The notes under the pieces were generated by a model. The model saw only the letters and a program-made list of their open reading frames with translations, searched no databases and had not been told where the DNA came from. Below are positions 20,240-50,714 of a DNA stretch of 50,714 bases, piece by piece. Within the stretch, counting starts at the first letter, position 1, and the number at the start of each line of letters is the position of its first letter. This DNA is from Candidatus Kapaibacterium sp. (GTDB taxonomy: Bacteria > Bacteroidota > Ignavibacteria > Kapaibacteriales > HRBIN21), in contig JANXCT010000010.1 of NCBI GenBank assembly GCA_025059875.1, positions 1 through 50,714 of the forward strand, in the 5' to 3' direction. Made by a program: the position numbers and the translations under genes.

Positions 20240-21310
20240 TCACTCCAACGTCACCGTTAAGCTCAGTCGGTTGACTAGCCCCAATCGGCGGGTTGGGGTG
20301 AGGGCGTAGTCTAGCTGTCCACGGAAACCGCTCCCAACGTATCGAACTCCTACCCCTCCTGACAGCCACATTTGGTCGTTCCCAAAACGGTAGCCCGCTC
20401 GCACCGACAGTAGGTCGTTCCACGTATACTCAGCCCCGACAGCAAACTGCTCCGGCACGTCGGAGTAGGTCTCAAAATCCAAGGCCGCAATGAGGCGATG
20501 TTCTTGGTGGCCCTCAGAGTAAAGCTTAGCTGTAGCCGGCCGACCCTGGATAACGCTGAGAGCATCGAATGCAATGCCTGCTCGGAACATCAATGGGATG
20601 GCATAAGGGTTCGTTACGATGCTCATAGCCGTTGGGTCAGAGTTCAAAGCATCTATGAGCCGACGCTGGAGGTAGAGCCCCTGTCCAGAGTACTCCATGT
20701 TCGGCCCCAAGTTGTGCACGGAAAAGCCCAAGCGCAGCCCGTAGAAATCCGTCTGGTAGAAAGTTCCGACGTCGAAGGTCACACCCGTCGCAGAGACATC
20801 TAACAGACTGTTTTGGACGAATCGCCCAGTGACGCCGAAGGAGAACTGCTCTGTCACACGCCCACCGAAGGTAACTCCAACGGCAACATCGGAGATGGTG
20901 TATGTTGCCCCTGTCCCCTCGGGCTGCTCTAAGGTCGTCACGGGGATATCACCGCTGGCGAAGCTAATGAAACTACCGGCGAGCCGGAAATTCTCCCCCA
21001 ATGGCACTGCTACTGCTGCGAAGTTGTGCGAAAACCCTCCGAACCACTGCGTATGGGAGAAGTGGCCGCTGATGCCCGTAATGTCCCCGACGCCGGCTGG
21101 ATTCCAGTAGATGGCTGTCAAATCATTGACGGCTCCAGCACTGCCGCCGAGCCCAACAGCGCGAGCTCCTATGGGCAGCTTCAAGAACTGTGATCCCGCT
21201 GCTCCTACCTTCTTGAACTCGCCTGCTGAGGGCGCATAGAGCTGGGCACTGCTACTAGCCACCCCAAGCAGCACAATGATAGCGCTCTGCCACAGAGTTC
21301 TCGGCTGCAT
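20240..21310 (-). CDS. PorV/UPF0164-family outer-membrane beta-barrel protein
   Basis: The 356 residues begin with a signal peptide (cleavage probably after SSSAQ near residue 23) followed by the family opening GAAGSQFLKLPIGARAVGLGGSAGAVNDLTAIYWNPAG. The remainder is rich in alternating polar/hydrophobic strands and ends in LSLTVTLE, as in an outer-membrane barrel. PorV-type proteins bind or shuttle type IX secretion substrates at the outer membrane; UPF0164 relatives are often encoded beside large exoproteins. Here it follows the 1270-residue exoprotein gene by 12 bp, so co-expression is almost certain. PorQ-like or another member of the family cannot be excluded. No hpd-type or metabolic link is seen. 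Its 3' end is 49 bp from the opposing ManC paralogue. Confidence 0.85.
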   Translation of the reverse strand: MQPRTLWQSAIIVLLGVASSSAQLYAPSAGEFKKVGAAGSQFLKLPIGARAVGLGGSAGAVNDLTAIYWNPAGVGDITGISGHFSHTQWFGGFSHNFAAVAVPLGENFRLAGSFISFASGDIPVTTLEQPEGTGATYTISDVAVGVTFGGRVTEQFSFGVTGRFVQNSLLDVSATGVTFDVGTFYQTDFYGLRLGFSVHNLGPNMEYSGQGLYLQRRLIDALNSDPTAMSIVTNPYAIPLMFRAGIAFDALSVIQGRPATAKLYSEGHQEHRLIAALDFETYSDVPEQFAVGAEYTWNDLLSVRAGYRFGNDQMWLSGGVGVRYVGSGFRGQLDYALTPTRRLGLVNRLSLTVTLE

Positions 21311-21322
21311 CTCTCTCCGTGC

Positions 21323-24300
21323 TTACTCTGGTACTTGCCGAATCCCACCAACAACTACGCTGAAGGGGAGCACGGCCTTAGCACCGTTCGGTGTCTCGAT
21401 GTGTGCAACGAAGGCCTGGCTCGCTACGCGTTGCAGGTTATCCGACAGCAGGTCCCACACAGCAACCCCCAGGCGCCCTTGCTCCTGTGCGGTACGGGCA
21501 TCGTACTCCAGCGTCCGGACCAGCTCACCACTAAGGGTGTAGATTCGGATTGTGCATCGCTCCGGCAACCGAGTGAAGAAGATCTTCGCATCGTACTGCG
21601 ACCGCTGGGCCTGGTGGACAACGTAGTAGGGATTCGGGACCACCTTGACCTGCTGCTCTAGTATCGCGTCTGTGATCTTGTCTGGTGGCGAGGGTTGGCT
21701 GACTCGAGCGCGAATCTTGGCGCCGGGAAGCGGGAAGCCCAGCGCTCCACCAGTAGTCTCAAAGACAATCGTATCACCAGGACGGAAATCGCGCGTAGGC
21801 TGGCTTGGGGCCCTATCAACACCTGAGAGTGGCGACACCCCCCAACCTCGCTTGTTGGCGAAGTCGATGAGGAACCGACATCCGGAAGCCACGAAGACAT
21901 GGACGAAGTCAATCGTATCACCATCACTGATGACCGACAAGTAGTACCGACCCTGCTGGGGAAGCCAGTCGCCTAACTGGACACGGCGCTGGGTAATCCC
22001 GTCGGCGCTCCGTCCGTTGACCCACGGGACAGCCGCAAACCCATATGACCCAATCGGGACCTGACGGGCATCAGGGCCCGTACCACGCGAAAGAGTAAGA
22101 TCTACCCTCGGCAGCTCACCAGGATAGGAGACCTGCACAGGGCGACCCGTTACTGGATCGAGCCGCTCAAAGCTGGCAGCGTTGTAGACCTTCACGTTGT
22201 AGTAAGGCACCTGCACCTGCTTGGAATTCCGTCCTGAATTCCACGTAATCGTCACCGTCTCTGTCCCTCCGGGCTCCAAGACGACCAGATACCGCGCCGG
22301 TCCGTTGTTGAAGCTGACGTATCGCTGTGTCGCTGGATCCGGTTGGGTGAGCTGCACCTGAGTGCGATCTGGATACACGGGAACGTCCACATCTGATCCG
22401 GCTCGGCGCTCAGCCCGATATGGGCGGTACTGGCCAGCCCACTGTTGGACGGCATAGTCAAAGGCAAAGCCGAGGGTGCCATAGATGTACTGGTCAGGAG
22501 CGTTGCATACCGCATCCGTGCGAAAGGTTCCCGTCCGCTGGACGTAGCTGACGGTGTCAAGCCGACCAATCCCCTGCGTCGTATCCCCAGTAAAGACTCC
22601 CGCAAACTCCGAAAACAGTCCTACGACGGTCCCCTGGCATTGAGTCGGCTCAAACAGGGCTACGTAGCGCCCCAATTCCGTACCAGCCGTCAGGTCGCGC
22701 AGAATGACCTGTCGGGCATAGATCCCGTTGACAGCTCCCTGAGGCGCAAAGAACCGCGTCCCGAACCACAAGGGCTGAAATTCGACTTCCAACTCGTGTC
22801 CACCAAAGAGCTGCTGAAGCCGTTGCTCATCCTGGACGAGGAAGCGGAAGTTGTAGATGCCTCCCAACTTGTCCCGATCTTCGGAGGTTATCGTAATCGT
22901 AGCTGGCTCGCTAGCTGGCGCTGGGCGCGGGAAGGCTTGCAAGACGTTGACTCCCGTTACGCCGATGTTGAGCTTACTCGGAGTGCGCTGGATAACATCC
23001 CCTTCATCGTACGCCAGCAGCCGGTAGTAGTAGTCCACATTGTTGAAGAGTCGCTCGGTGCGAGCTGGATCCGGATTGTCGTCGACGGTGCCACTTCGGT
23101 CATCATCTCCGACGTCTACGAATGTCCGGTTGTTTGTAATTCGAGCGATGTAGCGGGCAATTGTCTGCCGAACCTGCTGCCGTAGCACTGGGTCGTCGTC
23201 AAAGTCTGGAAAGACAAGCGTTGCCTTCCCTTGCTGGATATAGTCGTAGAGTGCGTTGAGGAACTCTTCTGTGCTAGGGAAGCTTTGGCGCACCAAGCCA
23301 CGTCCCCCAGTCAGGGCACGGCTAATCTGGACTTCACCTGTCAAGTACCGGTTCCGGGTGGCAGCATTCAGCGACTGCCAAAATTCACCCCATGGCTCCC
23401 CACCAAAGCCCACGCGGGCAACGCGGACTGTAAAGCTATCAGGCTGCGATATGAAGACCAGGGAGTCTATCCGCGGATAGGGGCTCCCCGGCAGAAGTGG
23501 ACGGTCCGACTTCTTGATGAACGGATTGGGCACCTCCCACCGAGCAATCTCCTTCCATCCAAAGGGTCCACGCGATGCGGCGGAACGGTGGTCCACATCA
23601 AACGAATCCAGGTCTAGCCGGCGGGCACGGTAGAGTCGATATCCCAAGAAGTCCAATCCTCGTTCACTGTCGTCGTACGTGTACTCAGCTGTCGAATCCC
23701 AACGGATCACTACACCATTGTTCAGAGGACTCCACGAGAGATTGGACCTATCCGGAGGGATTGGGGCCTTGAAACCGCCGTCGTAGACTGCTTGGGCAAA
23801 CCGCACCTTCCGGACGAGTTCATCGAGGTCTCCAAATCCTGTAGCATCCCGTCCAGTAGAAGTCGCAGCCAAGATCAGTCCAACGACGACTCGGGCTGTA
23901 TCTCCAGGCGCCATGTTGAATGGGCCTGTCGCCATCAGGAAGCGCTTGTCCCCAGGCCCTTGATCGCCATCCCGAATTCGTGCAGCCATGAAGTCATACC
24001 GCTCCTCGTCACCTGTGGGATCATTCTCGATAACCCAGTTCCGGAACGTCACCAACCCCAGTTGTTCCGAGAGCGGGTAGAAGCGCCGGTCTTTCCGAAT
24101 GAAGCCTGTGGCTGGATCTACCGCTGGACTCTCCAGGAAAGTCATCCCCAAGTATCCAAACCCCTTTCCAGCCTCCCCCTGGTCTGGATTGCTCCACTGG
24201 ATTGCCAGGTTGAGGGTCGGGTCCTCGTCGTAGAAGCGTACTCGATCGTTCCCGGCAATCGCGACCGGGTTAGCGGCTGGACCAATGTCAAAGTCCATCG

Positions 24301-25135
24301 CTGGCGCCATCCAGCACTCGTAGAGCGTATCCTGCGAACGGTTGATGATGAGGTACTTCAGGAAGATGAAGTCGCCGTAGTCGCCGAAGCCCCAGGAGTA
24401 GATAGTCTGCTCAATGTCCACGCGCAACGGATACCCCTGTGAGCGCCGCACAGCAACCCCCCCTTCGTACCGCCGCAGGTCAGTATCCTTGAAGACACAC
24501 CAGATATCCTCCTGCGAGATAAAGGCCGGTCCCCGAGGATAGGTTCGCAGGTTACGCAGCGTCAAATCATCAATGTAGTCACCAAAGTAGCGATTGACCT
24601 TCAGCGTCTCACGCTCGGAGGTGATCCAAAGCGGCCAGTTCGGTCCCTGAGGCCGCTGTCCCGCTTGTTCTGGCAATGGAGTACCATCGGGCGCATAGTC
24701 CGTGGAGAAGTACAACTGGTACTTGTCTTTCAGCTCATCGTTGTACTCGTCGCCGTCCGCTACCCGGCCTGGTACCATCCAGGAGGCTCCAGAATTCGGG
24801 TTATAGGAAACAATTACGAGTTTCCGCAGTTCACCGCGGACACGCTTCTTAGCCCCGAACCAGATCCCACCACCGAAGATGTACTGATTCTGCGAGCCCC
24901 GAGGCCAGAACCCTCCGCCTCGGTTTGCCGCAATGTTGAGGCCGAAGATGCCGTAGTTCGTGGTGTAGAATTCTATGCGGCTGACACGATTCCTCCGCTG
25001 CTCAAACGTTCCCTGAGCAAGCCGCTGGGGTTGTGGGATATCTCCCTCTTTTGCTCCGTAGTGCTCACGGGCCGTCCTCGCATCCGCAGAAAGCACTAGG
25101 ATGACACCGAAGACAGCAGGCAGCCACCACCGCAT
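21323..25135 (-). CDS. Large secreted protein with C-terminal sorting-like domain, unknown function
   Basis: A 1270-residue protein with an N-terminal signal peptide (hydrophobic 3-16, cleavage near ADA at 17-19). The body is rich in Asp, Tyr, Gly and Arg with few helices, and no enzyme motif was recognised; the middle (about 500-700) has a region resembling a fibronectin-like segment (NLSWSPLNNGVVIRW, then YRLYRA). The last 109 residues (from about 1162) read VVPNPYY, CTIRIYTLSGELVRTL, AVWDLLSDNLQRVAS, which is the pattern of a type IX secretion C-terminal domain (type A-like), although the terminal strand is less typical. It sits between a TonB-dependent receptor and a PorV-like protein on the same strand, with gaps of 72 and 12 bp. 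This order suggests that the receptor and PorV-like protein help place or use it at the cell surface. Confidence 0.8.
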   Translation of the reverse strand: MRWWLPAVFGVILVLSADARTAREHYGAKEGDIPQPQRLAQGTFEQRRNRVSRIEFYTTNYGIFGLNIAANRGGGFWPRGSQNQYIFGGGIWFGAKKRVRGELRKLVIVSYNPNSGASWMVPGRVADGDEYNDELKDKYQLYFSTDYAPDGTPLPEQAGQRPQGPNWPLWITSERETLKVNRYFGDYIDDLTLRNLRTYPRGPAFISQEDIWCVFKDTDLRRYEGGVAVRRSQGYPLRVDIEQTIYSWGFGDYGDFIFLKYLIINRSQDTLYECWMAPAMDFDIGPAANPVAIAGNDRVRFYDEDPTLNLAIQWSNPDQGEAGKGFGYLGMTFLESPAVDPATGFIRKDRRFYPLSEQLGLVTFRNWVIENDPTGDEERYDFMAARIRDGDQGPGDKRFLMATGPFNMAPGDTARVVVGLILAATSTGRDATGFGDLDELVRKVRFAQAVYDGGFKAPIPPDRSNLSWSPLNNGVVIRWDSTAEYTYDDSERGLDFLGYRLYRARRLDLDSFDVDHRSAASRGPFGWKEIARWEVPNPFIKKSDRPLLPGSPYPRIDSLVFISQPDSFTVRVARVGFGGEPWGEFWQSLNAATRNRYLTGEVQISRALTGGRGLVRQSFPSTEEFLNALYDYIQQGKATLVFPDFDDDPVLRQQVRQTIARYIARITNNRTFVDVGDDDRSGTVDDNPDPARTERLFNNVDYYYRLLAYDEGDVIQRTPSKLNIGVTGVNVLQAFPRPAPASEPATITITSEDRDKLGGIYNFRFLVQDEQRLQQLFGGHELEVEFQPLWFGTRFFAPQGAVNGIYARQVILRDLTAGTELGRYVALFEPTQCQGTVVGLFSEFAGVFTGDTTQGIGRLDTVSYVQRTGTFRTDAVCNAPDQYIYGTLGFAFDYAVQQWAGQYRPYRAERRAGSDVDVPVYPDRTQVQLTQPDPATQRYVSFNNGPARYLVVLEPGGTETVTITWNSGRNSKQVQVPYYNVKVYNAASFERLDPVTGRPVQVSYPGELPRVDLTLSRGTGPDARQVPIGSYGFAAVPWVNGRSADGITQRRVQLGDWLPQQGRYYLSVISDGDTIDFVHVFVASGCRFLIDFANKRGWGVSPLSGVDRAPSQPTRDFRPGDTIVFETTGGALGFPLPGAKIRARVSQPSPPDKITDAILEQQVKVVPNPYYVVHQAQRSQYDAKIFFTRLPERCTIRIYTLSGELVRTLEYDARTAQEQGRLGVAVWDLLSDNLQRVASQAFVAHIETPNGAKAVLPFSVVVGGIRQVPE

Positions 25136-25207
25136 CTCTCCATTCTCCCGCTTATGGTACAGCAGACTCCCTCAAGCGTAAGCTACACTCATGCAGGCTC
25201 CCTGGTC

Positions 25208-28200
25208 TCAGAAGCGCAGCAGGAAGCCCAGATTGACCGATCGGGGAAGACGGTAGTTGAGCTGTCGAGCCACCGTATCCCGCACCCACCGGAGATAGCT
25301 CTGGTACTTCTCTTCTTGCGTCACGACCCCGTCCCGATTGAAATCGGCATCCGGAGAGTAAAGACGCCGACCAAAGCTGTCGTACTGTGCTGGACTGATG
25401 GTCTCGGGACGGTTTGGATCTGCGTCTCGATACCAGTTCGTCGCGCTGAAATCCCCTAACTGCCGGTTGAGGCTCTCTCCGTCGTAGTCAGGACTGCCGG
25501 TACGCTCGTAGACGGCAATCGGGTGGGTGGTGTTGAGTAGGTTGAAGACATCGATGTACAGCTCCAACGTGGCGCTGCGGAAAGCCTCTCCAAAGAGAGA
25601 ACCAAGAGGAATTGCTCGCTGCAGCCGTAAGTCCACAGTCCAGTCCGACGGCTGCCGTGCACCATTGTACTCACCCACCTGATTCCCCTGGCGATCCCGC
25701 TTCGTGTAGGGAGTCCCAGTGGCAAACACCCCCGTAAAGTTCAGCGTCGTATTCTCAAAGGGTCGTAGCCCAGCAATGGATGGGCCCTCACCTTCACGGA
25801 GGAAGAAGGAGAGCGAGAAGTTCAGCACATGGCGACGGTCGTAGTCAAGGTAGTACTCGGTCAATGGGAAGGTCTTCGTGCCCGTGTAGGGGTCTTCGCC
25901 TGCCAGGATGGTTTGCCAGTACTGCGTCGTAGGCCCAGAGGCTGTACCACGAGCGTAGGAGAGGGTATAGTTGATGTCAAATCCGACGTTCCCCACCGGA
26001 CGGCGCCGGAGTCGGACCTCCAGCCCTCGAACGTTCCCGTACTCAGCAACGGTGTACTCCGAGTACGGATCTGGCAGAGTCGGGACATAGCGAAGCCCTA
26101 CCTGGTTGTAGATGTCCTTGTAGAAGGCCGTCACGTCTACTGCGAAGTCCTCCGTCAGTGCATGTGCATAGGAAACCTGGTACTGATTGCTCCGCTGCGT
26201 TCCCAGGTTGGGGTTGCCGAGGATTTGGTTCCCGCGGAGGCGGAAGGTATTCAGAGCGTCATACAGGAACGTCGGCTGAGGCATCTGCTGGAAGATACCG
26301 TAAGCGACCGAGAACGTGGAGCGCTCCGTGATTGGATAGTTCACAGAGACTCGAGGACTCAGATTCAGCTTTGCCTTTGCTGGGGCGAAGTATGCCTGGT
26401 CCTGAATTGGGATGAAGCGCTGGCTCTCGGTACGATACTTCGCGTTCGGCTGGAAGTAATCCAGTCGGAGCCCCACATTCAGGATCATTCCTCGGTAGGA
26501 GAACTGGTCCTGGATATAGGCAGCCACCGTGTAGGGCTTGTACGGTTTGCTCGTTAGCTCCCACACCTGTTGATTCTCAGCGTAGATGTTGCCACCCCAG
26601 CGGTCGGTGTAGACGTCAAAGAATGCGTTCCCATCCCACGGCAAGCTGTTGTAGTGGTGGTGGAGTGTTAGGAATCTAGCTTCAAATCCCGCCTTGAGGA
26701 GGTGCACCACTTCTCCTGCCTCCACTCGGCTAGTGATGTAGCCGTCTACCTGTAGGTACTCTGAGTACCTGAACTCAAAAGCCCGCTCATTCCCGGCAGC
26801 AATGAAGAAGCCCTGCAACCCGTACGGATTGCGGGTGCTCGTAGCGTTGCTACCTCCCTCCACGTATCCAGTCCACGGGTGGCGAATCGGGCGTACAGTG
26901 ATGAGGTACCCATCTTCGCTCACCGTCTGTCCAGTAAGGAGCGTGTAGTGGTCAATGACTTTATCCCCAACCCCTCCCCGCAGCTCCCTCGGCAACAGCT
27001 GGTTACCCTCCACGACATAACGGTCCTGCGGATACCAGAGGCTGAACCCTTCAAAGAAATGGGGACGATCAAAGTAGTTCTTCACCCATCCGCGGCCAGG
27101 CTCGTAGGCTAAGTAGCGGCGCGATACTTCGTTGACGTTCCAAGTATTGGAGACCGTCAGCTCGTAGTACGTAGCCTGCCCCAAGGCGTGGGTGACACGG
27201 GCTAAGACGTTGCCAACGAACTGGTCTATGACCGCACGCTTTGCGAAGTATTCCTGGACACCGTTGGACTCTCCATTCACTATGCCCTCATCCCGAGCGT
27301 ACATCCAGCCGATCGATGGCCGCTCGTAGTCCGTCAACCCAAACATGCCACCCACCAACAGGCTGATGTCTTTCGTGAGGGCGAACTTCAGCCGCGCACT
27401 GAGTGAGCGCATCCACGTCCGATCTTGCGGGAGCTGCCCCCAGGAGTTACCCCAGGGATCCTTCACATCCAGACCCGCATTCCGATATTGGTTGGTCAGA
27501 TACTGTGCGCTTAAGTAGAAGGTCGAACCGCTCAGCAAGGGAATGGGTCCACCAAACGCCAGTTCGTAGTTGTACTCCTTCCGAGGCAGTCGCCGGAGTC
27601 CATTCCTTGCCGAACCGTAGAGGAAGGCAATATCGTCCGTGTAGAAGCGGAAGGTCGCTTCATAACGGTCTGTTCGTCCAGTCTTGGTCACCGTGTTGAC
27701 CACACCTCCCAAGGCATTGCCGTACTCAGCAGCGAAATTGCCCGTTAGTACCTGCACTTCTTCAACTGCCAGATTGGTCACTGTTGGGAAGTAGCGGAAA
27801 CCACCGTTGCCAAAAGCCCCAACGAACTGGTCAGCAATGTCCAGCCCGTCAAGCCGGATCTGGGTCTCAATGGCTCGGCTGCCACGGACAATGAAGCCAT
27901 TTCCTGCGGCCAGCACACCCGGGGTAAGGAGCGCGACTTGTTGGACTGTCTGGCGCGGGATGTTCCGAATCTCTTCAGAGGTGACATTCCGTAGAGTCCC
28001 TATGGCGTACTTCTCCACTAGTGGGGCCTTCGCCTCCACTGTCACCTCCTGTACCCGCACAGCCTCAGGCTCCAACTGTACAGAGATCTCCGTCGTTTGG
28101 TCTGCAGAGATTCGAACCTGTAAGCGCACCTCCCGATAGCCAATGGCGCGTATGACGACAGTATAGGTACCGACGGGCACATTCACAATGCTAAATCGCC

Positions 28201-28372
28201 CATCCGGGCGAGCAAATCCTCCAAGGGTTGTTCCCTCTATCCGGACGGTCGCTCCGGGGATAGGTTTACCCTCTTTGTCCGTTACTCGTCCCGCCAGGAC
28301 GCCATAGATACCCGCCCAGGTCACGCTGAGTGGGATCATGAGTCCAACTGTCCACAGCACAAGGCGCCGCAT
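25208..28372 (-). CDS. TonB-dependent receptor with carboxypeptidase-regulatory-like domain
   Basis: A 1054-residue outer-membrane receptor. Residues 1-20 form the signal peptide; 23-100 form the regulatory-like beta-sandwich (GRVTDKEGKPIPGATVRI, GRFSIVNVPVGTYTV); the plug follows at about 110-235 (VQEVTVEAKAP, LLTPGVLA, VRGSRAIETQIRLDG, EVQVLTGNFAAEYGNALGGVVNTVTK); and the barrel fills the rest, ending in LGFLLRF with terminal Phe. No separate TonB box is obvious, and no SusD-like partner is adjacent. Ligand unknown. The gene is 57 bp downstream of a BNR-type exoprotein gene and 72 bp upstream of the 1270-residue exoprotein gene. This order (receptor, large exoprotein, PorV-like barrel) suggests a functional unit, perhaps export or surface assembly rather than nutrient uptake. 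Confidence 0.94.
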   Translation of the reverse strand: MRRLVLWTVGLMIPLSVTWAGIYGVLAGRVTDKEGKPIPGATVRIEGTTLGGFARPDGRFSIVNVPVGTYTVVIRAIGYREVRLQVRISADQTTEISVQLEPEAVRVQEVTVEAKAPLVEKYAIGTLRNVTSEEIRNIPRQTVQQVALLTPGVLAAGNGFIVRGSRAIETQIRLDGLDIADQFVGAFGNGGFRYFPTVTNLAVEEVQVLTGNFAAEYGNALGGVVNTVTKTGRTDRYEATFRFYTDDIAFLYGSARNGLRRLPRKEYNYELAFGGPIPLLSGSTFYLSAQYLTNQYRNAGLDVKDPWGNSWGQLPQDRTWMRSLSARLKFALTKDISLLVGGMFGLTDYERPSIGWMYARDEGIVNGESNGVQEYFAKRAVIDQFVGNVLARVTHALGQATYYELTVSNTWNVNEVSRRYLAYEPGRGWVKNYFDRPHFFEGFSLWYPQDRYVVEGNQLLPRELRGGVGDKVIDHYTLLTGQTVSEDGYLITVRPIRHPWTGYVEGGSNATSTRNPYGLQGFFIAAGNERAFEFRYSEYLQVDGYITSRVEAGEVVHLLKAGFEARFLTLHHHYNSLPWDGNAFFDVYTDRWGGNIYAENQQVWELTSKPYKPYTVAAYIQDQFSYRGMILNVGLRLDYFQPNAKYRTESQRFIPIQDQAYFAPAKAKLNLSPRVSVNYPITERSTFSVAYGIFQQMPQPTFLYDALNTFRLRGNQILGNPNLGTQRSNQYQVSYAHALTEDFAVDVTAFYKDIYNQVGLRYVPTLPDPYSEYTVAEYGNVRGLEVRLRRRPVGNVGFDINYTLSYARGTASGPTTQYWQTILAGEDPYTGTKTFPLTEYYLDYDRRHVLNFSLSFFLREGEGPSIAGLRPFENTTLNFTGVFATGTPYTKRDRQGNQVGEYNGARQPSDWTVDLRLQRAIPLGSLFGEAFRSATLELYIDVFNLLNTTHPIAVYERTGSPDYDGESLNRQLGDFSATNWYRDADPNRPETISPAQYDSFGRRLYSPDADFNRDGVVTQEEKYQSYLRWVRDTVARQLNYRLPRSVNLGFLLRF

Positions 28373-28424
28373 TCCACCCCCACGCTCTGTGAGACTTGAC
28401 TATGGGTCGCAATCTGTGGCTCGG

Positions 28425-28432
28425 CAAATTTA
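28425..28432 (-). promoter_or_regulatory. Candidate -7 box TAAATTTG for the TonB-receptor gene
   Basis: On the minus strand the octamer matches TAnnTTTG and begins at the last bases of the upstream exoprotein gene, 53 bp before the receptor ATG (28372). It suggests an internal promoter for receptor, exoprotein and PorV-like genes. Confidence 0.4.
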
Positions 28433-30394
28433 CCGGACCACAACTAGCTGCCGAACAACCGAGCCACTCGAATGGTGCAGCCGAAGGTAGTAGACCCCAG
28501 AAGGCAACTCGGCTGCGTCGAGCAAGAAGGAGTAGGGCTTGTTCGCCTCTGCCCATCCCTCGTACAGAGTCTTCACTCGGCTACCTACCGGACTGCAGAG
28601 CTCCAGCGAGAGCCATCCAGAGGACGAGGGGATGAGCTGAATGTGTCCTGCTTTCACTATTGGGTTCGGGTAGACCCGGAACTGAACGCCACCGCTGTGC
28701 GCTTCTTCATTCACGCCTGTTGGGAGGGCATATGTCATAACGTAGATGTCATCTGCCTGCCCTGACTGCCACCGGGCCCCCTGCACGAACGACCCGGGAA
28801 CGCCCCCCGCTTGGTAGGCAATGACAGCATACCCTACTGGGCCACCCCGAGGAGCTGTCGGGAAGCTACAATCAACCCCATTGGGAGTGAGATTTACCGG
28901 TGGGGACCACGTGGTGTCGTTCAGTTTCGTAGTCAAGTAGATGTGTCCATAGCCGTAGACAGCTGTAGGCTCGTCTTCCGGAGCTATCGTATCCCCTTCG
29001 TTTGGAGCCGACATGACAGCATAAAGTCGACCCTGATCGTCTATGCCAAGTTTCAGGCGATCAACGTAGCCGCTTGCGATTGTGTGACGTACCTGTACTA
29101 CTTGCCCGCCCCGCCCTACGACCGGTGGGGGAAGCGGGACCAGAACTCCCTGGGTTGCTCCCTCAAATCCATACACCCCCATGGGATATGCCCCTGCTAC
29201 CCTCAAAGAGTCATAGTAGACCGTGTCTTCGATGACTTGCGCACCTAACCGCCTTACAACATGCCGCCCCTTTAGGAAATAGGCTGCTAGCGTTGCTAGC
29301 GCATGCCATCTGCCCCGATCGTCAACAAGGAAGCTGTAGTTGTCAACACCCGGGATTGTATCTGTGTGGAAGACAGTCACCCGAATCGTCGTGTCACCTG
29401 CGGTCGTATCTATGGTGCTCTCTTCGTATCTAGCAAACTGGAACTGTCCTGCCGCTAAGGGAACTGGTGGTGACCACGTGGCACCATTATCCGCAGAGAG
29501 CCGGAGGATGATTGTCGGCCCCGTCTCTAAAGGTACTGAAAGATAGGCAACGAGTAGTCGCCCACCGCCGGCTTCAATAATGTAGTGGTCCGCCCCCTGG
29601 ATTGCTGGTGGGGCTTCGCCCCCTGAGAGGAAGACTTCGTCGCTCCATGTCCTACCTTGGTCAGTGGAGCGCCGGTAGGCGACTTGCCCAGCGTTGTTGC
29701 CGGCATTGTACGTGTAGACAACGTGCAGTGTCCCCTCTGCTGTGCTCGTCAGATATGGCCATAAACTTCCAGCCGGCCCTACATCAGTGACGGACCAGCT
29801 TTCATCGAGGGGGCCTTGGTTTCGCACGAACCTGAGCGGTGTATGAGACATAAAGGCTACCGCTCCTCCGGGTAATGCTGCTGCTGCCGGCCAACCCGTT
29901 CGCACTGCCTCGATTCGAGTCCAACCCCGCTGGGTTGGGATAACGCTGGGATTCTCCGGATTGCTAAGATCAACCGCTGCGTAGTACGTTCCCCGATCCC
30001 GGAAGCCACTATCAGGCTGGTCAGAGGATGCCATCCAGACGAGCTGCAGGACGTTCTCTGGACCGTACCAGACCATGCGGTTCTTGATGAGGAAATTTGT
30101 CTGCCAGTCGTACGTAGTGTTAGCAATTCTGACACCCGGAAGATTCTGGAGGGACCGTGCTGGCAGGCGGCGGAGTAAGGTTGCGCGCCGCTCGGCGACG
30201 AGCTCCATCCTCTGACCATTCAGAGGTATCGCCCGGGGCTCTTTCAGGGGATATAGCGGTATCCCCGACGGAATACGGAGGAGCTGAACGTCTGTTTTCG
30301 TGCTGTGAACTGCTACAGACCCTTCTGCCGAAGGTGTACCCATCAGCCAGATAGCAGCACCCATTGCAACCAAGGCACAGAAAGCTGGCTTCAT
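28430..30394 (-). CDS. BNR/sialidase-type propeller exoprotein with type IX sorting domain
   Basis: The 654 residues begin with a signal peptide (1-24) and contain Asp-box repeats typical of BNR propellers: STDQGRTWSDEVF and SADNGATWSPPV, plus related TTKLNDTTWSPPVNL. These repeats occur in sialidases and in many non-enzymatic surface proteins; no sialidase catalytic Arg triad or Tyr/Glu motif was identified, so activity is not claimed. The C-terminal 83 residues (from about 572) are a clear type A sorting domain: FRVYPNPIVKAGHIQL, LCSPVGSRVKTLYEG, LDAAELPSGVYYLRLHHSSG and RQLVVVR. The protein is therefore predicted to be exported by a type IX system and attached to or released from the surface. 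It is the first gene of the minus-strand surface block, and a near-match -7 box (TATATTAG) lies about 50 bp upstream. Confidence 0.85.
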   Translation of the reverse strand: MKPAFCALVAMGAAIWLMGTPSAEGSVAVHSTKTDVQLLRIPSGIPLYPLKEPRAIPLNGQRMELVAERRATLLRRLPARSLQNLPGVRIANTTYDWQTNFLIKNRMVWYGPENVLQLVWMASSDQPDSGFRDRGTYYAAVDLSNPENPSVIPTQRGWTRIEAVRTGWPAAAALPGGAVAFMSHTPLRFVRNQGPLDESWSVTDVGPAGSLWPYLTSTAEGTLHVVYTYNAGNNAGQVAYRRSTDQGRTWSDEVFLSGGEAPPAIQGADHYIIEAGGGRLLVAYLSVPLETGPTIILRLSADNGATWSPPVPLAAGQFQFARYEESTIDTTAGDTTIRVTVFHTDTIPGVDNYSFLVDDRGRWHALATLAAYFLKGRHVVRRLGAQVIEDTVYYDSLRVAGAYPMGVYGFEGATQGVLVPLPPPVVGRGGQVVQVRHTIASGYVDRLKLGIDDQGRLYAVMSAPNEGDTIAPEDEPTAVYGYGHIYLTTKLNDTTWSPPVNLTPNGVDCSFPTAPRGGPVGYAVIAYQAGGVPGSFVQGARWQSGQADDIYVMTYALPTGVNEEAHSGGVQFRVYPNPIVKAGHIQLIPSSSGWLSLELCSPVGSRVKTLYEGWAEANKPYSFLLDAAELPSGVYYLRLHHSSGSVVRQLVVVR

Positions 30395-31180
30395 TAGCTA
30401 CACCCCTAGACCGAGTCCAACAACTGCCGCTTGCTTGCTGTGCTAATATAACAAGTCCGGTACACCCATTGCACTGCCTAAAGCTCACCAGCGCCTTAGC
30501 ACTGAGGCTCACCGTTGCATTCCTCCGGCCATCACGACCAAACCGCCGCACCCCACCCAGGGCAACGGTCGAAAACCAAGGCCGCACTCCCACAGCCACT
30601 GAGGACACGATCTCCCAGAAGCAACGCCTGTACTTAACTGCCCGAGCTTCCCTCACCCACCGCATGCAGAAACTCCTGGCACCCGTGCACCCGCGACCGA
30701 TTATCCCCCTCCCCTGGAGTGGCCACTACGACCGAGCATGGTGTCAGCGAGGGTCTCAACAGCAACACTCCTACAAGAGCAGACATAGCACCTTCCGTCT
30801 ACCCATCCCTGTGATCGCAAGCTATTCCGCATCACTTGGCACAGTCAGCTCGAAGCCTCTAGTATCGCACGCTGTCTCCACGGGCTCGGCCAATCCACAT
30901 TAACTAACGGTCCACCGACGCAGGTGGCAAGCCCCTCTTCAGGTACCATGCAGGGGTACTGGCAAGCCCACGAGCAACAGCAGAGTAGCTTCCTAACAGG
31001 CTATGCCAAGCCAACTTAGGACTATCGGGGCATCCCTCTAGGAGCGGAGACTTTGGGGCGATTTGCCTGCTATAGACTGGTCTCCCGACCAAGGGTGGAG
31101 CAGCCCCGTTGTTTGACCCCTTCAACCAGCCCGTTCGTCATCCCGTTCTGCGGCTCCAGACGTGCAGCCCTGCTACAGTG
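30395..31180. other. Intergenic stretch with no supportable gene
   Basis: In these 786 bp, frames of up to 179 codons exist (30364-30903 plus; 30904-31125 minus), but their products are rich in Ser, Pro, Arg and His with no domain or conserved-looking motif. The promoter of the BNR exoprotein is probably in the first 60 bp. I see no tRNA or other RNA signature. Like 11007-11837, it may be a remnant of a decayed gene or hold an unrecognised RNA. Confidence 0.4.
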
Positions 31181-37343: not shown

Positions 37344-38828
37344 ATGCCTGCAATCATCGCCGCTGTAGCGTTGGTAGTTGGGAATAGCCTCGTACTGTGG
37401 GCACAGATTCAGGCTCGCCCGAAGGGGTCCGCTGTCCAGGTCACGCCAGTAGATGCCCTCAACTCATCAGCGGACGACTTCGTTACCAGCATTGCTCGAG
37501 GGGGACGTGAAGTCTACCTAACCTCCAGCCGTGGTGGTGGGCGGCAGCGCCTCTACGTTGCGGAACGGCAGGGAGACCGTTGGGGGTCACCTCGGCGAAT
37601 CGGTGGAGAAGTCAGCGACGCTACCCACGTTGGAGGTGCAACTCTGACGATGGACGGGAACCTCCTCCTCTTCGCTGCCTTCCAGCATGATCTCGGCGGC
37701 AGCGGACGGACGGACCTCTACAGTGCATACCGTTCAGGCGACCGCTGGACGAAAGTCGCTAACCTCGGAGCGGCCGTCAACTCTAATCACTGGGACTCGC
37801 AGCCCTGCATTGCTGCCGACGGGACCCTACTCATCTTCGCCTCCGACCGGCCCGATGGCAGTGGCGGCACCGACCTCTGGATGTGTCGTCGCGAGGGGAA
37901 TCGGTGGTCAGCGCCAGTAGCACTCCGTACACTCAACTCCTCTGCTGACGATATGGCACCCGTTTTAGCAGCCGACGGGCGCACCCTCTACTTCGCTTCC
38001 AACCGTGACGGCAACTTCGACATTTTCGTCAGCCGCATGGGGCCAGATGGAAGCTTCGGAAGGCCGGAGAAGTTCGCTGCCCCGGTCAATACGCCTGCTG
38101 ACGAGTATTTCTACGTCCCCCTGCCAGACCAGAATGCTGCCCTCCTGAGCCGCGCAACCTCTGCCGGGGATTTGGATGTCTTCCTCGTCGTCCCCAACCC
38201 GAATCCACCAGAGCCTGTGCTGATGGTCCAAGGGACGGTCCGTGATGCGTCCACTCAGGCGCCCCTTGGGGCAACGATGACGATTACGGACCTTCGTACG
38301 CGGCGAAAGATCGCTGAGCTCTATAGCGACGAGGAGACAGGCGAGTACTACGTTGCTCTCCCTGCAGGACGGACATACTCCATCACTGCCTCCCGAGAGG
38401 GCTACCTCTTCTACAGCGAGCGCTTTGAGGTCGGACGCGACATCGCCGTCAACCCCATTACGAAGGACATCCTGTTGACTCCCGCCGAGCGCGGGCGTAC
38501 TCGACTGCTGGTCTTCTTCGACTTTGATAAGGCCGAGCTGAAGGAAGAGTCCCTGCCAGACCTGGACCGATTGGTAGAGTTCCTCAAAGCGTATCCCTCA
38601 GTGCGCATTCTCATCGAAGGCCACACCGACGACGTCGGAACTGATGCCTACAATGACCGCCTATCCCAACGACGCGCCGATGCTGTTAAAGACTACCTGG
38701 TCAAGCAAGGGATAGATGCTCGGCGCATCGAAACCAAAGGCTGGGGACGGCGTCGGCCCCTTGTCCAGGGAACCACAGAAGAGGCTCGGGCCCAGAATCG
38801 CCGAGTTGAGGTCTCTGTCATTCAGTGA
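37344..38828 (+). CDS. OmpA-family protein with PD40 propeller repeats
   Basis: A 494-residue envelope protein. After a signal peptide (1-20) come PD40 repeats spanning about 30-280, with recognisable units LNSSADDFVTSI, ATLTMDGNLLLFAA, CIAADGTLLIFASDRPDG, APVLAADGRTLYFASNRDG and VNTPADEYF. A carboxypeptidase-regulatory-like domain follows (about 295-375: VQGTVRDASTQAPLGATM). The C-terminal OmpA domain (388-494) contains FDFDKAELKEES, EGHTDDVGTDAYNDRLSQRRADAV and QNRRVEV, with the Asp and Arg that bind peptidoglycan diaminopimelate. Homologous architecture occurs in the PorE type IX secretion component, so a structural role linking the outer membrane to peptidoglycan is plausible; this is inference. 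The pseudogene at 3039 is a broken relative. It is followed 11 bp later by a cytochrome c-porin gene. Confidence 0.92.
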   Translation: MPAIIAAVALVVGNSLVLWAQIQARPKGSAVQVTPVDALNSSADDFVTSIARGGREVYLTSSRGGGRQRLYVAERQGDRWGSPRRIGGEVSDATHVGGATLTMDGNLLLFAAFQHDLGGSGRTDLYSAYRSGDRWTKVANLGAAVNSNHWDSQPCIAADGTLLIFASDRPDGSGGTDLWMCRREGNRWSAPVALRTLNSSADDMAPVLAADGRTLYFASNRDGNFDIFVSRMGPDGSFGRPEKFAAPVNTPADEYFYVPLPDQNAALLSRATSAGDLDVFLVVPNPNPPEPVLMVQGTVRDASTQAPLGATMTITDLRTRRKIAELYSDEETGEYYVALPAGRTYSITASREGYLFYSERFEVGRDIAVNPITKDILLTPAERGRTRLLVFFDFDKAELKEESLPDLDRLVEFLKAYPSVRILIEGHTDDVGTDAYNDRLSQRRADAVKDYLVKQGIDARRIETKGWGRRRPLVQGTTEEARAQNRRVEVSVIQ

Positions 38829-42431: not shown

Positions 42432-43742
42432 CTACAGGCGCTCGATGCTGACCAGCCGCCAGCGTCCGTCTGGCCGTAGTTCAAAGAGGAAACGCTGCCG
42501 GAGTCGCTCGTACGTCCACAGCTCTCGCGGAGGGCTCTCCGGTAGGAGCTCCCGGTGGAGGTGTGTTGGAGGGCCGTAGAGGATGTAGATCTTCCCCCGC
42601 TCCGTCTGTGCACCGTCTGGCTCCACAACGGACTGGAAGGCGAAGTAGGCGTAGTCCACTCGGCGGAAATACACGGCCATAGCCTCATTGTAAGCCGTTG
42701 CCGGCGTAGGATCACGCTGTTTCCAGTATTGCCAAATCTTTCGCCACTGCTCCTGCTGCGATCCCGAGCGCAGCCGTGACCACGCCTCCTTCGTCAGCAG
42801 GTAGTACATGCTCTGCACTGCATACGAAATCCGGCGTAGTGACAGCGGCATCGTTGCCCAGACGACTCGGAACTCCCACCGAAGCGTGTCCGTTGGCTCC
42901 TCGTCCCGCCAGAGTAGGAGCTCGTAACGCCCAGGCACCAGCTCCGCAGTTGTCAAGAGGGACTCGATCCAAGCCCCAATCCCGCTATCGGAGCGCACGC
43001 GGTACCGAGGGAGAGGATGCTCAACCCGCTCTAACCTCCCCGGACCTTGCGCAACAAGCCCTGCAGAGAGTTCCGGTGTGCTGTCCCACCATCGTTCGCC
43101 TCCTGCTGGAGGCAACTGTCGGCAGCGATAGCGGTACGACTGCCCGGGCTGCAGCCGAGCATCCCACAGGAGGAGCCGAACCGTGTTGACCCCAAACGGA
43201 ATAGCCCCGCCAAGCACGAACGGCGCAATGAGCTCTCGCTCCGAGGTGCTTGCAAACAGAGGTGCCTTCCACTGCTGCCGAGAGACAGGAAGATCTTGCT
43301 GGCGGACTTCACGATGCGCCAGAAGTAGTTGTAGGCGGCAACGGTGTACCGAGGCCGGTACTACTACCTCAATGGCGCGAACCCAAGCGGAATCCCGTGA
43401 CAGTGTCGCCTCGTACTGCTGCACCCAGAGCGTATCGCGTACTTCCAACCGGCGGCGCACAATCCCCACAGTGTCCAACAACTCCGTGCCCAACTGCACT
43501 AAGGCCCGAAAGCCCCCACGGATGGTCTCTTGCTCAAACGGCAGTACGGCATACGCAACTCGCACGAGCACCACAACATGCATGGAATCAGCCCCTTCCG
43601 GCAGAGCGTAGAGCTCTGCAAACCATCCCTCGCCGAACTGTCCGAAGAAGTAGCGCCCCAGCAACTCTGTGTCTTGCTGTGCGACACTCTCACTCCAGAG
43701 GACAGCAGCACACAGGTAAAGCTTTACAACCCACCGCCTCAT
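42432..43742 (-). CDS. GWxTD domain-containing secreted protein
   Basis: The 436-residue product has a signal peptide (1-21, LCAAVLWSESVAQ) and the GWxTD domain in its C-terminal third: IWQYWKQRDPTPATAYNEAM, YFRRVDYAYFAFQ and ERGKIYILYGPP, with a terminal WRLVSIERL-type strand. The eponymous GWxTD tetrad is altered, but the surrounding pattern is clear. These proteins are common in Bacteroidota, Acidobacteria and Gemmatimonadetes and are of unknown function, thought to be periplasmic or extracellular. Its start follows the ruvX stop with no gap (43743/43742), so translation is probably coupled. The N-terminal two thirds is beta-rich with no recognised domain. Confidence 0.85.
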   Translation of the reverse strand: MRRWVVKLYLCAAVLWSESVAQQDTELLGRYFFGQFGEGWFAELYALPEGADSMHVVVLVRVAYAVLPFEQETIRGGFRALVQLGTELLDTVGIVRRRLEVRDTLWVQQYEATLSRDSAWVRAIEVVVPASVHRCRLQLLLAHREVRQQDLPVSRQQWKAPLFASTSERELIAPFVLGGAIPFGVNTVRLLLWDARLQPGQSYRYRCRQLPPAGGERWWDSTPELSAGLVAQGPGRLERVEHPLPRYRVRSDSGIGAWIESLLTTAELVPGRYELLLWRDEEPTDTLRWEFRVVWATMPLSLRRISYAVQSMYYLLTKEAWSRLRSGSQQEQWRKIWQYWKQRDPTPATAYNEAMAVYFRRVDYAYFAFQSVVEPDGAQTERGKIYILYGPPTHLHRELLPESPPRELWTYERLRQRFLFELRPDGRWRLVSIERL

Positions 43743-49900: not shown

Positions 49901-50714
49901 GTACCGACCTGCACTTGACGCAGGTGGATGAGCCTTTGTACACGGGTGTACCGCAGAATGCCGATGTGCCCGTTGACATTGACGGCGAGGGCCGGCGTGT
50001 CTGGTACATGGGTGCCGATGAGGTGATCCCTGTCATCACAATTACACAACAGCCTGTGGACACGACGCGAGGCTGCCTGGGAACCTCCACGACGCTCCGT
50101 ATCCAGGCTACTGCCACCTTCAACGCACGCCTCTCCTACCAGTGGCTACGGAATGGCGCGCCAATCCCTGAGGGATACGATGGCCGTTTCTTCGGCACTA
50201 CAACCCCAACGCTGTCTATCCAAAACACAAAGCCAACTGACGAAGGTGCATACGCCTGCCTGGTTACAGGCAACAGTGGTGCAACTCCCGTGCTGTCCAA
50301 CCTGAGCATTCTCATTGTGTGGTCGCCGATTGAAATCACGCAGCAGCCTGAGTCACAGTTTGCATGCGTAGGCGGAGAGGTTGTGCTGGGGGTCCTTGCC
50401 AACGGGACCATCTTCGGCTACCAGTGGCAGCGGGAGACCCCTGCAGGATGGCAAGACATCCCTGGTGCAACGCAGGGGCAGCTTCGACTCAGCAACCTGC
50501 AGTATTCTTCGTCCGGGCGATACCGGTGCGTACTCTTCGGTACCTGCGGTACGGAGCAACTCCCCACGGACCCGGCTGTGGTCTTCGTACTAGGCGATGT
50601 CCAGTTTACGGCAGCGCCCGACACTGTTGCCACTGCCCTCGGTGGTCGGGCGGAGCTGAGTGTGGAGGCGGAGGTTGTGGGGGCGCCGCCGACGTACCAG
50701 CCGCAGTACCAGTG
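46903..50714 (+). CDS. Giant surface protein: SBBP propeller, beta-helix and Ig-like domains (3' end cut by window edge)
   Basis: Open from the ATG at 46903 to the last base (1270 codons and still running); no stop codon occurs in the window. A signal peptide occupies 1-24 (SLVLLHLPASAQ). Residues about 30-470 hold seven SBBP-like blades (VDANGNVYVTGYYY type), alternating a YGYGxxVD type and an I-x-Y-x-x-x-x-D type, which fits a seven-bladed propeller. Residues 488-590 resemble a CARDB/Ig-like domain (LDAGIVGLANPQPP). Residues 601-1030 form a right-handed beta-helix (VVLRNLTIQN, NNLVLRNNTIRNGSVG, IVHNSVNV), ending in a GADE motif. Two Ig-like domains follow (about 1045-1140, ITQQP, then YQWLRNGAPI; and about 1144-1230), then a third begins. 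The ensemble suggests an exported adhesin-like protein, and a type IX sorting domain would be expected beyond the edge. Function and ligand are unknown. Confidence 0.88.
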   Translation, partial: MLQRALLVLTSLASLVLLHLPASAQSWLWARRIGGACYDYYVYPMRVASDAQGNVYVTGYFYYYFTAEGVTYYTYNFGAHVDMFVAKYSPTGVLQWVRVGGGTGSDYGYGIGVDANGNVYVTGYYYSNPAVFGSWSLAAATTPDVFLVKYDANGNVLWAARMAGTSTDIVYNLAVDANGNSYLTGYFSSSTTFFSAGSTTGTTLPAVGSGVEAFVAVYNTNGVFQWARAIGGSSSEYGYGVGVDQSGNVYVSGYYYSNPIYVGSTAMSLSVAYATPEIFLAKFNPSGTALWVANAMVGSSTEILYDMSTDASGNSFLTGYTTSNPAYAISAAGSGGGTITISRGTTTAQAFAVRFNTNGVAQWGSIVGGTVSTYGYGIDVDNRGNIYLGGYHYGSFTFGSSTISVSATPDVFILVWQSDGTADFGVAATGNSTDILYHLRVSRPRREAAITGYFLSTPLTFGNISINNDSYTSGCYYYAAGFLATMRVRPNLDAGIVGLANPQPPFASGNQGVTIRLQNFGRQPITSITVAWSVDGTPQSPQTWTGTLSSDAVTTLTLGTLNFAPRTIVNLQFSITAVNGLTDEDASNNALTAQRAPALAGAYTIGGTSPDFPSFTAAANYLHIGGVLDTVTFRVRSGVYTEQLNLNATIPGAGLPTRRITFESESGNAASVTLRYAATSSLDNFVVRLNELKHVVLRNLTIQNTGASFGRVIWLTSTSSSLGAGCDDVTIEGCQLIGRSSTSTATADAVVYAYENNHNNLVLRNNTIRNGSVGVFVGSWWFPLTTGLRLEGNTIRDFYVGALYALYLDAPVVVRNQLIGSPTSIASGGYYLYFLFNDNAITVERNHMWGMPGGSGVLVNSFYSSVAATARIVNNFIEIGNNTANLSRGIDIRSRSNIAIVHNSVNVRSTNASSAAFYSAAGSSLRVTHNIFINSGTGWAIWANSAFAASPSACNYNNLYSVSGPIGWFGGSNRQTLADWRTATNYDANSISKPVPWASGTDLHLTQVDEPLYTGVPQNADVPVDIDGEGRRVWYMGADEVIPVITITQQPVDTTRGCLGTSTTLRIQATATFNARLSYQWLRNGAPIPEGYDGRFFGTTTPTLSIQNTKPTDEGAYACLVTGNSGATPVLSNLSILIVWSPIEITQQPESQFACVGGEVVLGVLANGTIFGYQWQRETPAGWQDIPGATQGQLRLSNLQYSSSGRYRCVLFGTCGTEQLPTDPAVVFVLGDVQFTAAPDTVATALGGRAELSVEAEVVGAPPTYQPQYQ
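47005..48260 (+). repeat. Imperfect tandem repeats encoding seven propeller blades
   Basis: Within the giant gene, short tracts recur: the YGYG-type tract at about 47221, 47611 and 48022 (spacing about 390-411 bp) and the other type at about 47404, 47808 and 48200. The motif GYYYSNP occurs twice at nearly the same place in the unit. The pair period of about 400 bp shows that the blades arose as duplicated pairs. Confidence 0.6.

Follow-up and report, generated by a model that had tools for sequence, protein, structure and literature searches.

We describe here a four-gene surface block on contig JANXCT010000010.1 of Candidatus Kapaibacterium sp. (GenBank assembly GCA_025059875.1). The contig is analysed in its entirety, at 50,714 nucleotides, and is referred to below as the window; the genome to which it belongs measures 1.97 Mb and is 98% complete. 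The core of the block is a trio of genes encoding a TonB-dependent receptor (TBDR, P0002), a giant exoprotein (P0003) and a barrel of the PorV/PorQ family (P0004), and a smaller exoprotein (P0001) is encoded in front of them. The trio joins known parts in a new combination. We found no description of it in the literature searched, although preprints and most subscription papers fell outside that scope and a prior description is possible. Of the 66 places where both flanks of the giant gene can be read, 61 have the complete trio in one and the same order, which supports the block being a real and widely conserved unit. With a probability of roughly 0.55, we propose that it encodes a surface complex assembled by the type IX secretion system (T9SS) around the receptor and serving uptake without SusD.

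Conservation of the trio

The original prediction had described four genes on one strand with small gaps, and this was confirmed: all four open reading frames (ORFs) lie on the minus strand at the positions in Table 1, separated in gene order by 57, 72 and 12 bp. The base composition of the block is unremarkable. A promoter and terminator scan returned five of each (3.9 and 7.2 in shuffled sequence) and placed no terminator-like site within the three gaps, which weakly suggests that the block may be transcribed as one unit.

Loci for comparison were chosen by similarity to the giant alone, from among the better matches and mostly one per genome, a choice that under-samples lower-ranking paralogues. 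Besides the window, 66 loci were read, and trios were counted from all ORFs of each locus, a trio being complete where a TBDR lies upstream and a PorV-family barrel downstream of the giant on the same strand. There were 70 giants in total, from which four cut by contig ends were left out (L074, L091, L092 and L096:17080-19998). Complete trios were found at 43 of 45 places in the first set (the window, six named relatives and 40 loci of the same class), at 5 of 5 in four further loci of the class and at 13 of 16 outside it. The gene order is thus kept among relatives, a point on which the prediction had made itself depend. Median gaps within the 61 trios are 35 and 18 bp (maxima 227 and 115 bp), and families as distant as about 31-34% mean identity keep the order. 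The trios are not independent of each other, because several loci, L024-L028, are close kin of the window, with 78-88% identity in the aligned halves, and L029 and L080 are almost alike in the barrel tree.

Five places depart from this arrangement. At L093 the giant appears as two overlapping ORFs and the barrel lies further on; the two ORFs (L093:8034-11776) are in different frames, perhaps through a frameshift or an assembly error. L096:2216-5539 is a further exception, at L182 the barrel is present and the receptor absent, and at L184 and L186 the giant takes a 700-residue form with receptor and barrel a few genes away. This short form leads a five-gene cluster in which receptor and barrel come last (L184:7731-17747 and L186:7761-18719), a rearranged trio.

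A giant homolog was found in 20 of the 21 other genomes of the same order. Across the class, 145 of 149 genomes match the giant at E<=0.001, many by short or distant stretches only, and a profile of its core matches 131 of 247 genomes of the phylum at E<=1e-6. The closest named relatives by the giant are Bacterium HR21 and assemblies labelled Candidatus Kapabacteria or Bacteroidota (80-86% identity over the best segment).

Table 1. Coordinates of the block and related features (window positions unless a locus is named)
Feature	Position	Strand	Remarks
P0001, first gene, 654 aa exoprotein	28430..30394	-	BNR/Asp-box, T9SS tail
P0001 type A-like T9SS sorting tail, residues 574-652	28439-28675	-	
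P0002, TBDR, 1054 aa	25208..28372	-	CarboxypepD_reg_2 + Plug + barrel
P0002 EF-hand-like loop DFNRDGVVTQEE, residues 1010-1021	25310..25345	-	before the receptor's last strand
P0003, giant exoprotein, 1270 aa	21323..25135	-	Sec signal by eye
P0003 conserved core, residues 44-512	23600..25006	-	
P0003 C-terminal domain, residues 1156-1266	21338..21670	-	Ig-like T9SS-type class (VVPNPY...)
P0004, PorV/PorQ-family barrel, 356 aa	20240..21310	-	NF033709; candidate dedicated receptor/anchor for the giant's C-terminal domain
Intergenic stretch upstream of block	30395..31180	-	presumed promoter region; L025 and L028 have the ECF sigma/anti-sigma pair here
Sigma/anti-sigma pair	L025:2839-4666		extracytoplasmic function (ECF) sigma
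Sigma/anti-sigma pair	L028:2799-4578		ECF sigma
Sigma/anti-sigma pair	L059:387-2343		ECF sigma

Two classes of sorting tail

Two proteins of the block had been predicted to carry type IX-like C-terminal domains (CTDs). For P0001 this probably holds, with a type A-like tail that is marginal (TIGR04183, 21.9 bits against a cut-off of 23; Por_Secre_tail, E 8.6e-4 and 20 bits against 27). Its relatives are clearer: 10 of 10 match TIGR04183 at E<=0.01 and nine exceed the cut-off, the exception being L025 at 22.7 bits. P0001 has a signal peptide by eye, a match in its own genome and a BNR/Asp-box region just under the cut-off of PF13088 (E 2.7e-7, 30.6 bits against 31.4); its fold is probably a propeller.

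For the giant the prediction needs amending, since its tail has no TIGR04183 match at E<=1 and falls into a distinct Ig-like class. A model of this CTD matches 69 of the 70 giants, the remaining one being cut by a contig end. When tail profiles were trained on one part of the sequences and scored on the held-out rest, the giant profile gave the higher score for 42 of 42 giants, and the upstream-protein profile did so for 18 of 18 upstream proteins. We therefore read the giant's C-terminus as a putative T9SS-type class that is related to, yet distinct from, type A. Two tail classes in one operon would mean two exported proteins with different T9SS-type tails, with a barrel of its own following only the second. 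Compared with the PDB, the CTD profile reached PorU at E 0.27; its top matches were repeat propellers aligned over short repeated pieces, which we rejected as chance.

The rest of the giant resembles little that is described. Neither Pfam nor NCBIfam yields a family match for P0003 at E<=0.01, and the giants' core finds no relative in the PDB by sequence profile (0 matches at E<=1). At E<=0.01, eight of 20 giants match the PorZ model, two TIGR04183 and two the PorU model; TIGR04131, the type B tail, is absent among the families that they match, with one weak Pfam CHU_C match (E 0.0026). By eye P0003 has no lipobox, and a loose lipobox pattern occurs in 3 of the 61 trio giants, so giants in general are not lipoproteins of the SusD type.

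A PorV-family barrel proposed to be dedicated to the giant

P0004 had been predicted to be a PorV/UPF0164 barrel. Its membership of the PorV/PorQ family is clear (NF033709, 169.1 bits, cut-off 90), but it is not PorV itself (equivalog NF033710, 65.5 bits, cut-off 250), it falls far below the PorQ and PorV2 cut-offs as well, and the name UPF0164 was returned by no tool. In a tree, 45 block barrels and 19 PorV rows of the canonical type are split by one branch with support 100/99; two of these PorV rows are identical and some lie below the NF033710 cut-off, and long-branch warnings attach to other paralogs from the window's own genome.

The same genome encodes the T9SS components that we checked: SprA (931.6 bits), PorU (707.1 bits) and a canonical PorV (253.2 bits), the last directly after PorU. 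Of its six PorV-family genes, five exceed the family cut-off, and four of the six, the block's included, are preceded by a CTD gene. The second such barrel overlaps or abuts the end of a 1653-residue PorU2-like gene when longest-ORF starts are used (L023:2114-8099, equal to G000:C2:188113-194098). A third directly follows the gene of a 137-residue protein that has a signal peptide by eye and a sorting tail scoring right at its cut-off (L022:6821-8219, on G000:C8), possibly a minimal pair.

In Porphyromonas gingivalis, PorV holds PorU and PorQ holds PorZ at the surface (PMC5562754). The block would share with these pairs a T9SS-exported surface protein held by a PorV/PorQ-family barrel, and the genome's own PorU gene lies next to its PorV gene in the block's order of CTD gene and then barrel. 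The block differs in that the giant corresponds to neither PorU nor PorZ, P0004 lies below the PorV and PorQ cut-offs and a TBDR belongs to the unit. PorV is reported to recognise every type A CTD, while type B substrates use cognate PorP/SprF-like shuttles, which are often encoded alongside (PMC12618676). A dedicated shuttle gene beside its substrate gene, as proposed for the block, would be a likeness to type B, whereas the giants scanned lack a TIGR04131 match and P0004 scores below the PorP_SprF cut-off (20.8 bits against 22.3). A FadL-like barrel serves as the pillar for a large extracellular protein in the BamG-BamH pair of the Bacteroidota BAM complex (PMC12611786); there, BamH is a surface lipoprotein, and P0004 has no match to the BamG model at E<=1.

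A proposed receptor for uptake without SusD

P0002 keeps its plug and barrel, with matches to Plug (36.7 bits, cut-off 23.9), OMP_b-brl_3 (29 bits, cut-off 27) and CarboxypepD_reg_2 (above the Pfam cut-off). By eye, many of 57 aligned rows show a TonB-box-like stretch. The genome encodes 13 plug-bearing TBDRs and two TonB_C matches. An EF-hand-like loop precedes the last strand of the receptor. Among the first set of loci, 43 receptors score over 500 bits, and a strict pattern finds the loop within the final 120 residues in 34 of them. A GDDNxDG stretch akin to this loop is present in many giants.

In SusCD systems, SusD acts as the lid. The block resembles them in that a TBDR with a CarboxypepD_reg extension is encoded with a large partner. 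P0002 nevertheless lies outside the SusC/RagA subfamily (TIGR04056, 61.8 bits, cut-off 368.25), and the giant has a T9SS-type tail in place of a lipobox. That no SusD stands beside the receptor, as the original prediction had noted, is correct, but it says little about P0002 itself, because PF07980 (SusD_RagB) has 0 matches in the whole genome while a Bacteroides control was matched.

The prediction had suggested that the block is a specialised export or surface-assembly module rather than ordinary uptake. The first half of this agrees with our data, as a conserved unit in which the giant has its own PorV-family neighbor fits T9SS assembly. The exclusion of uptake does not follow, given the retained plug, the TonB proteins and the 13 receptors, and uptake with a substitute for SusD is no less likely than export. 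Specialised surface assembly by the T9SS probably takes place, but it would belong to an uptake machine and not replace it.

We hypothesize the following sequence of events. P0003 would use Sec to cross the inner membrane and the genome's SprA-type translocon to cross the outer one. Its CTD would then be captured by the adjacent P0004 barrel rather than by the general shuttle PorV, and the giant would be retained there as PorU is on PorV and PorZ on PorQ; by the logic of the family, P0004 would thus serve both export and anchoring. Held on its barrel, the giant would sit above P0002 as a substrate-binding partner or lid, in SusD's role, and P0002 would import a ligand with TonB energy. P0001 would leave via canonical PorV and probably aid substrate capture or processing. 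The export route, the binding of giant to barrel, the complex with the receptor, the import and its ligand are all inferred from gene content and homology.

A bolder and more tentative extension, which we hold at somewhat less than even odds, is that the trio marks a third way of sorting T9SS cargo in Bacteroidota, in addition to type A with PorV and type B with PorP/SprF. Here a distinct CTD class would be paired with a dedicated PorV paralog as shuttle and anchor, building TonB-dependent uptake complexes that do without SusD and have a giant exported by the T9SS in place of the lipoprotein lid. If true, T9SS and TonB-dependent uptake, usually treated separately, would become linked, and lineages without SusD would have a way to cover their receptors. 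Many barrels annotated only as PorV/PorQ family would gain a testable function, as would giant exoproteins that lack a name throughout the phylum, and the scheme of type A/PorV and type B/PorP-SprF (PMC12618676) would gain a third case.

Several observations weigh against the uptake complex or against its parts. The two tail classes are evidently kin, because the giant-CTD model gives the upstream proteins of L175 and L187 28.9 and 22.6 bits, and the tail comparison spans these loci together with PorU and PorU2 rather than the full range of T9SS cargo. The CTD of the genome's own PorU scores closer to the ordinary tails (26.3 against 11.8), so the analogy with PorU is one of layout and not of CTD kinship. 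The resemblance of P0003 to PorZ is weak (E 0.018), and the PorZ model does not single out giants cleanly, as it also matches 2 of 10 first-gene proteins (L175 and L187, both outside the class). AlphaFold models of the two halves of the giant, built from seven sequences each, were poor (pLDDT 35.1 and 53.0); Foldseek matches of the second half were discarded at a query TM of about 0.1, though PorZ and PorU were among them. The TonB-box pattern is found in 25 of the 61 receptors. The core also occurs outside trios, in the 700-residue forms of L184, L186 and, within the window's own genome, L020, none of which is in trio order; this genome has four core matches and one trio was seen. Finally, mirror-tree distance correlations of 0.946-0.952 may reflect shared descent alone and do not separate co-function from it.

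Alternative readings

The strongest competitor, though an unlikely one, is a module for surface structure or envelope homeostasis, in which giant and barrel would form a permanent outer layer or a stress-linked structure and the receptor would be structural or signalling. The giant's presence throughout nearly the whole order is broader than a nutrient-specific set would suggest, and a GWxTD gene often follows the barrel. Further, 12 of the first 47 loci have genes for an ECF sigma factor and a Dma-like anti-sigma upstream of the block; in Bacteroides, vesiculation and some polysaccharide loci are under the control of Dma proteins (PMC13088901). The sigma/anti-sigma pair is absent at the site in the window, L026 and L027, however, and the plug and TonB-box-like stretch kept by the receptor speak against this reading. 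L194, a genome of the class, carries two trios side by side, an arrangement that suits separate ligands.

Somewhat less probable still is that the genes are merely co-expressed, the barrel being a general PorV-like accessory or a FadL-type channel and the four proteins acting separately. In the window's genome, two of the six PorV-family genes, a PorQ-like gene and the sixth of the set, show no CTD gene upstream when their neighbors are read by eye, which would fit such a role. That the three genes keep one order and small gaps between families as distant as those above argues against it.

It is improbable that the receptor itself moves the giant or the first protein outward, as Oar of Myxococcus xanthus, likewise a plug-bearing receptor with an N-terminal extension of the CarboxypepD_reg kind, is needed for secretion of PopC (PMC6434023), because both exoproteins have T9SS-type C-termini and SprA, PorU and PorV are present, making a second export route unneeded, while the Oar layout dominates Bacteroidetes receptors, importers such as SusC included. 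The passages on Oar mention neither a T9SS tail nor a PorV-like partner.

Neighboring genes

The anti-sigma genes are distant from the curated models (L025, 27.9 bits against 100; L059, no match). A search of the window's own genome with the L028 anti-sigma found no such pair elsewhere, a result that shows little as it had no positive control. The GWxTD-domain gene (PF20094) that commonly follows the barrel in relatives lies apart from the block in the window, at 42432-43742.

At three loci outside the class (L175, L176 and L187), an Amidase_2 gene (N-acetylmuramoyl-L-alanine amidase) lies right after the barrel, in two cases with a sorting tail, which hints at peptidoglycan-derived ligands at those loci. 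The window also encodes a 494-residue fusion of PD40, CarboxypepD_reg and OmpA domains at 37344-38828.

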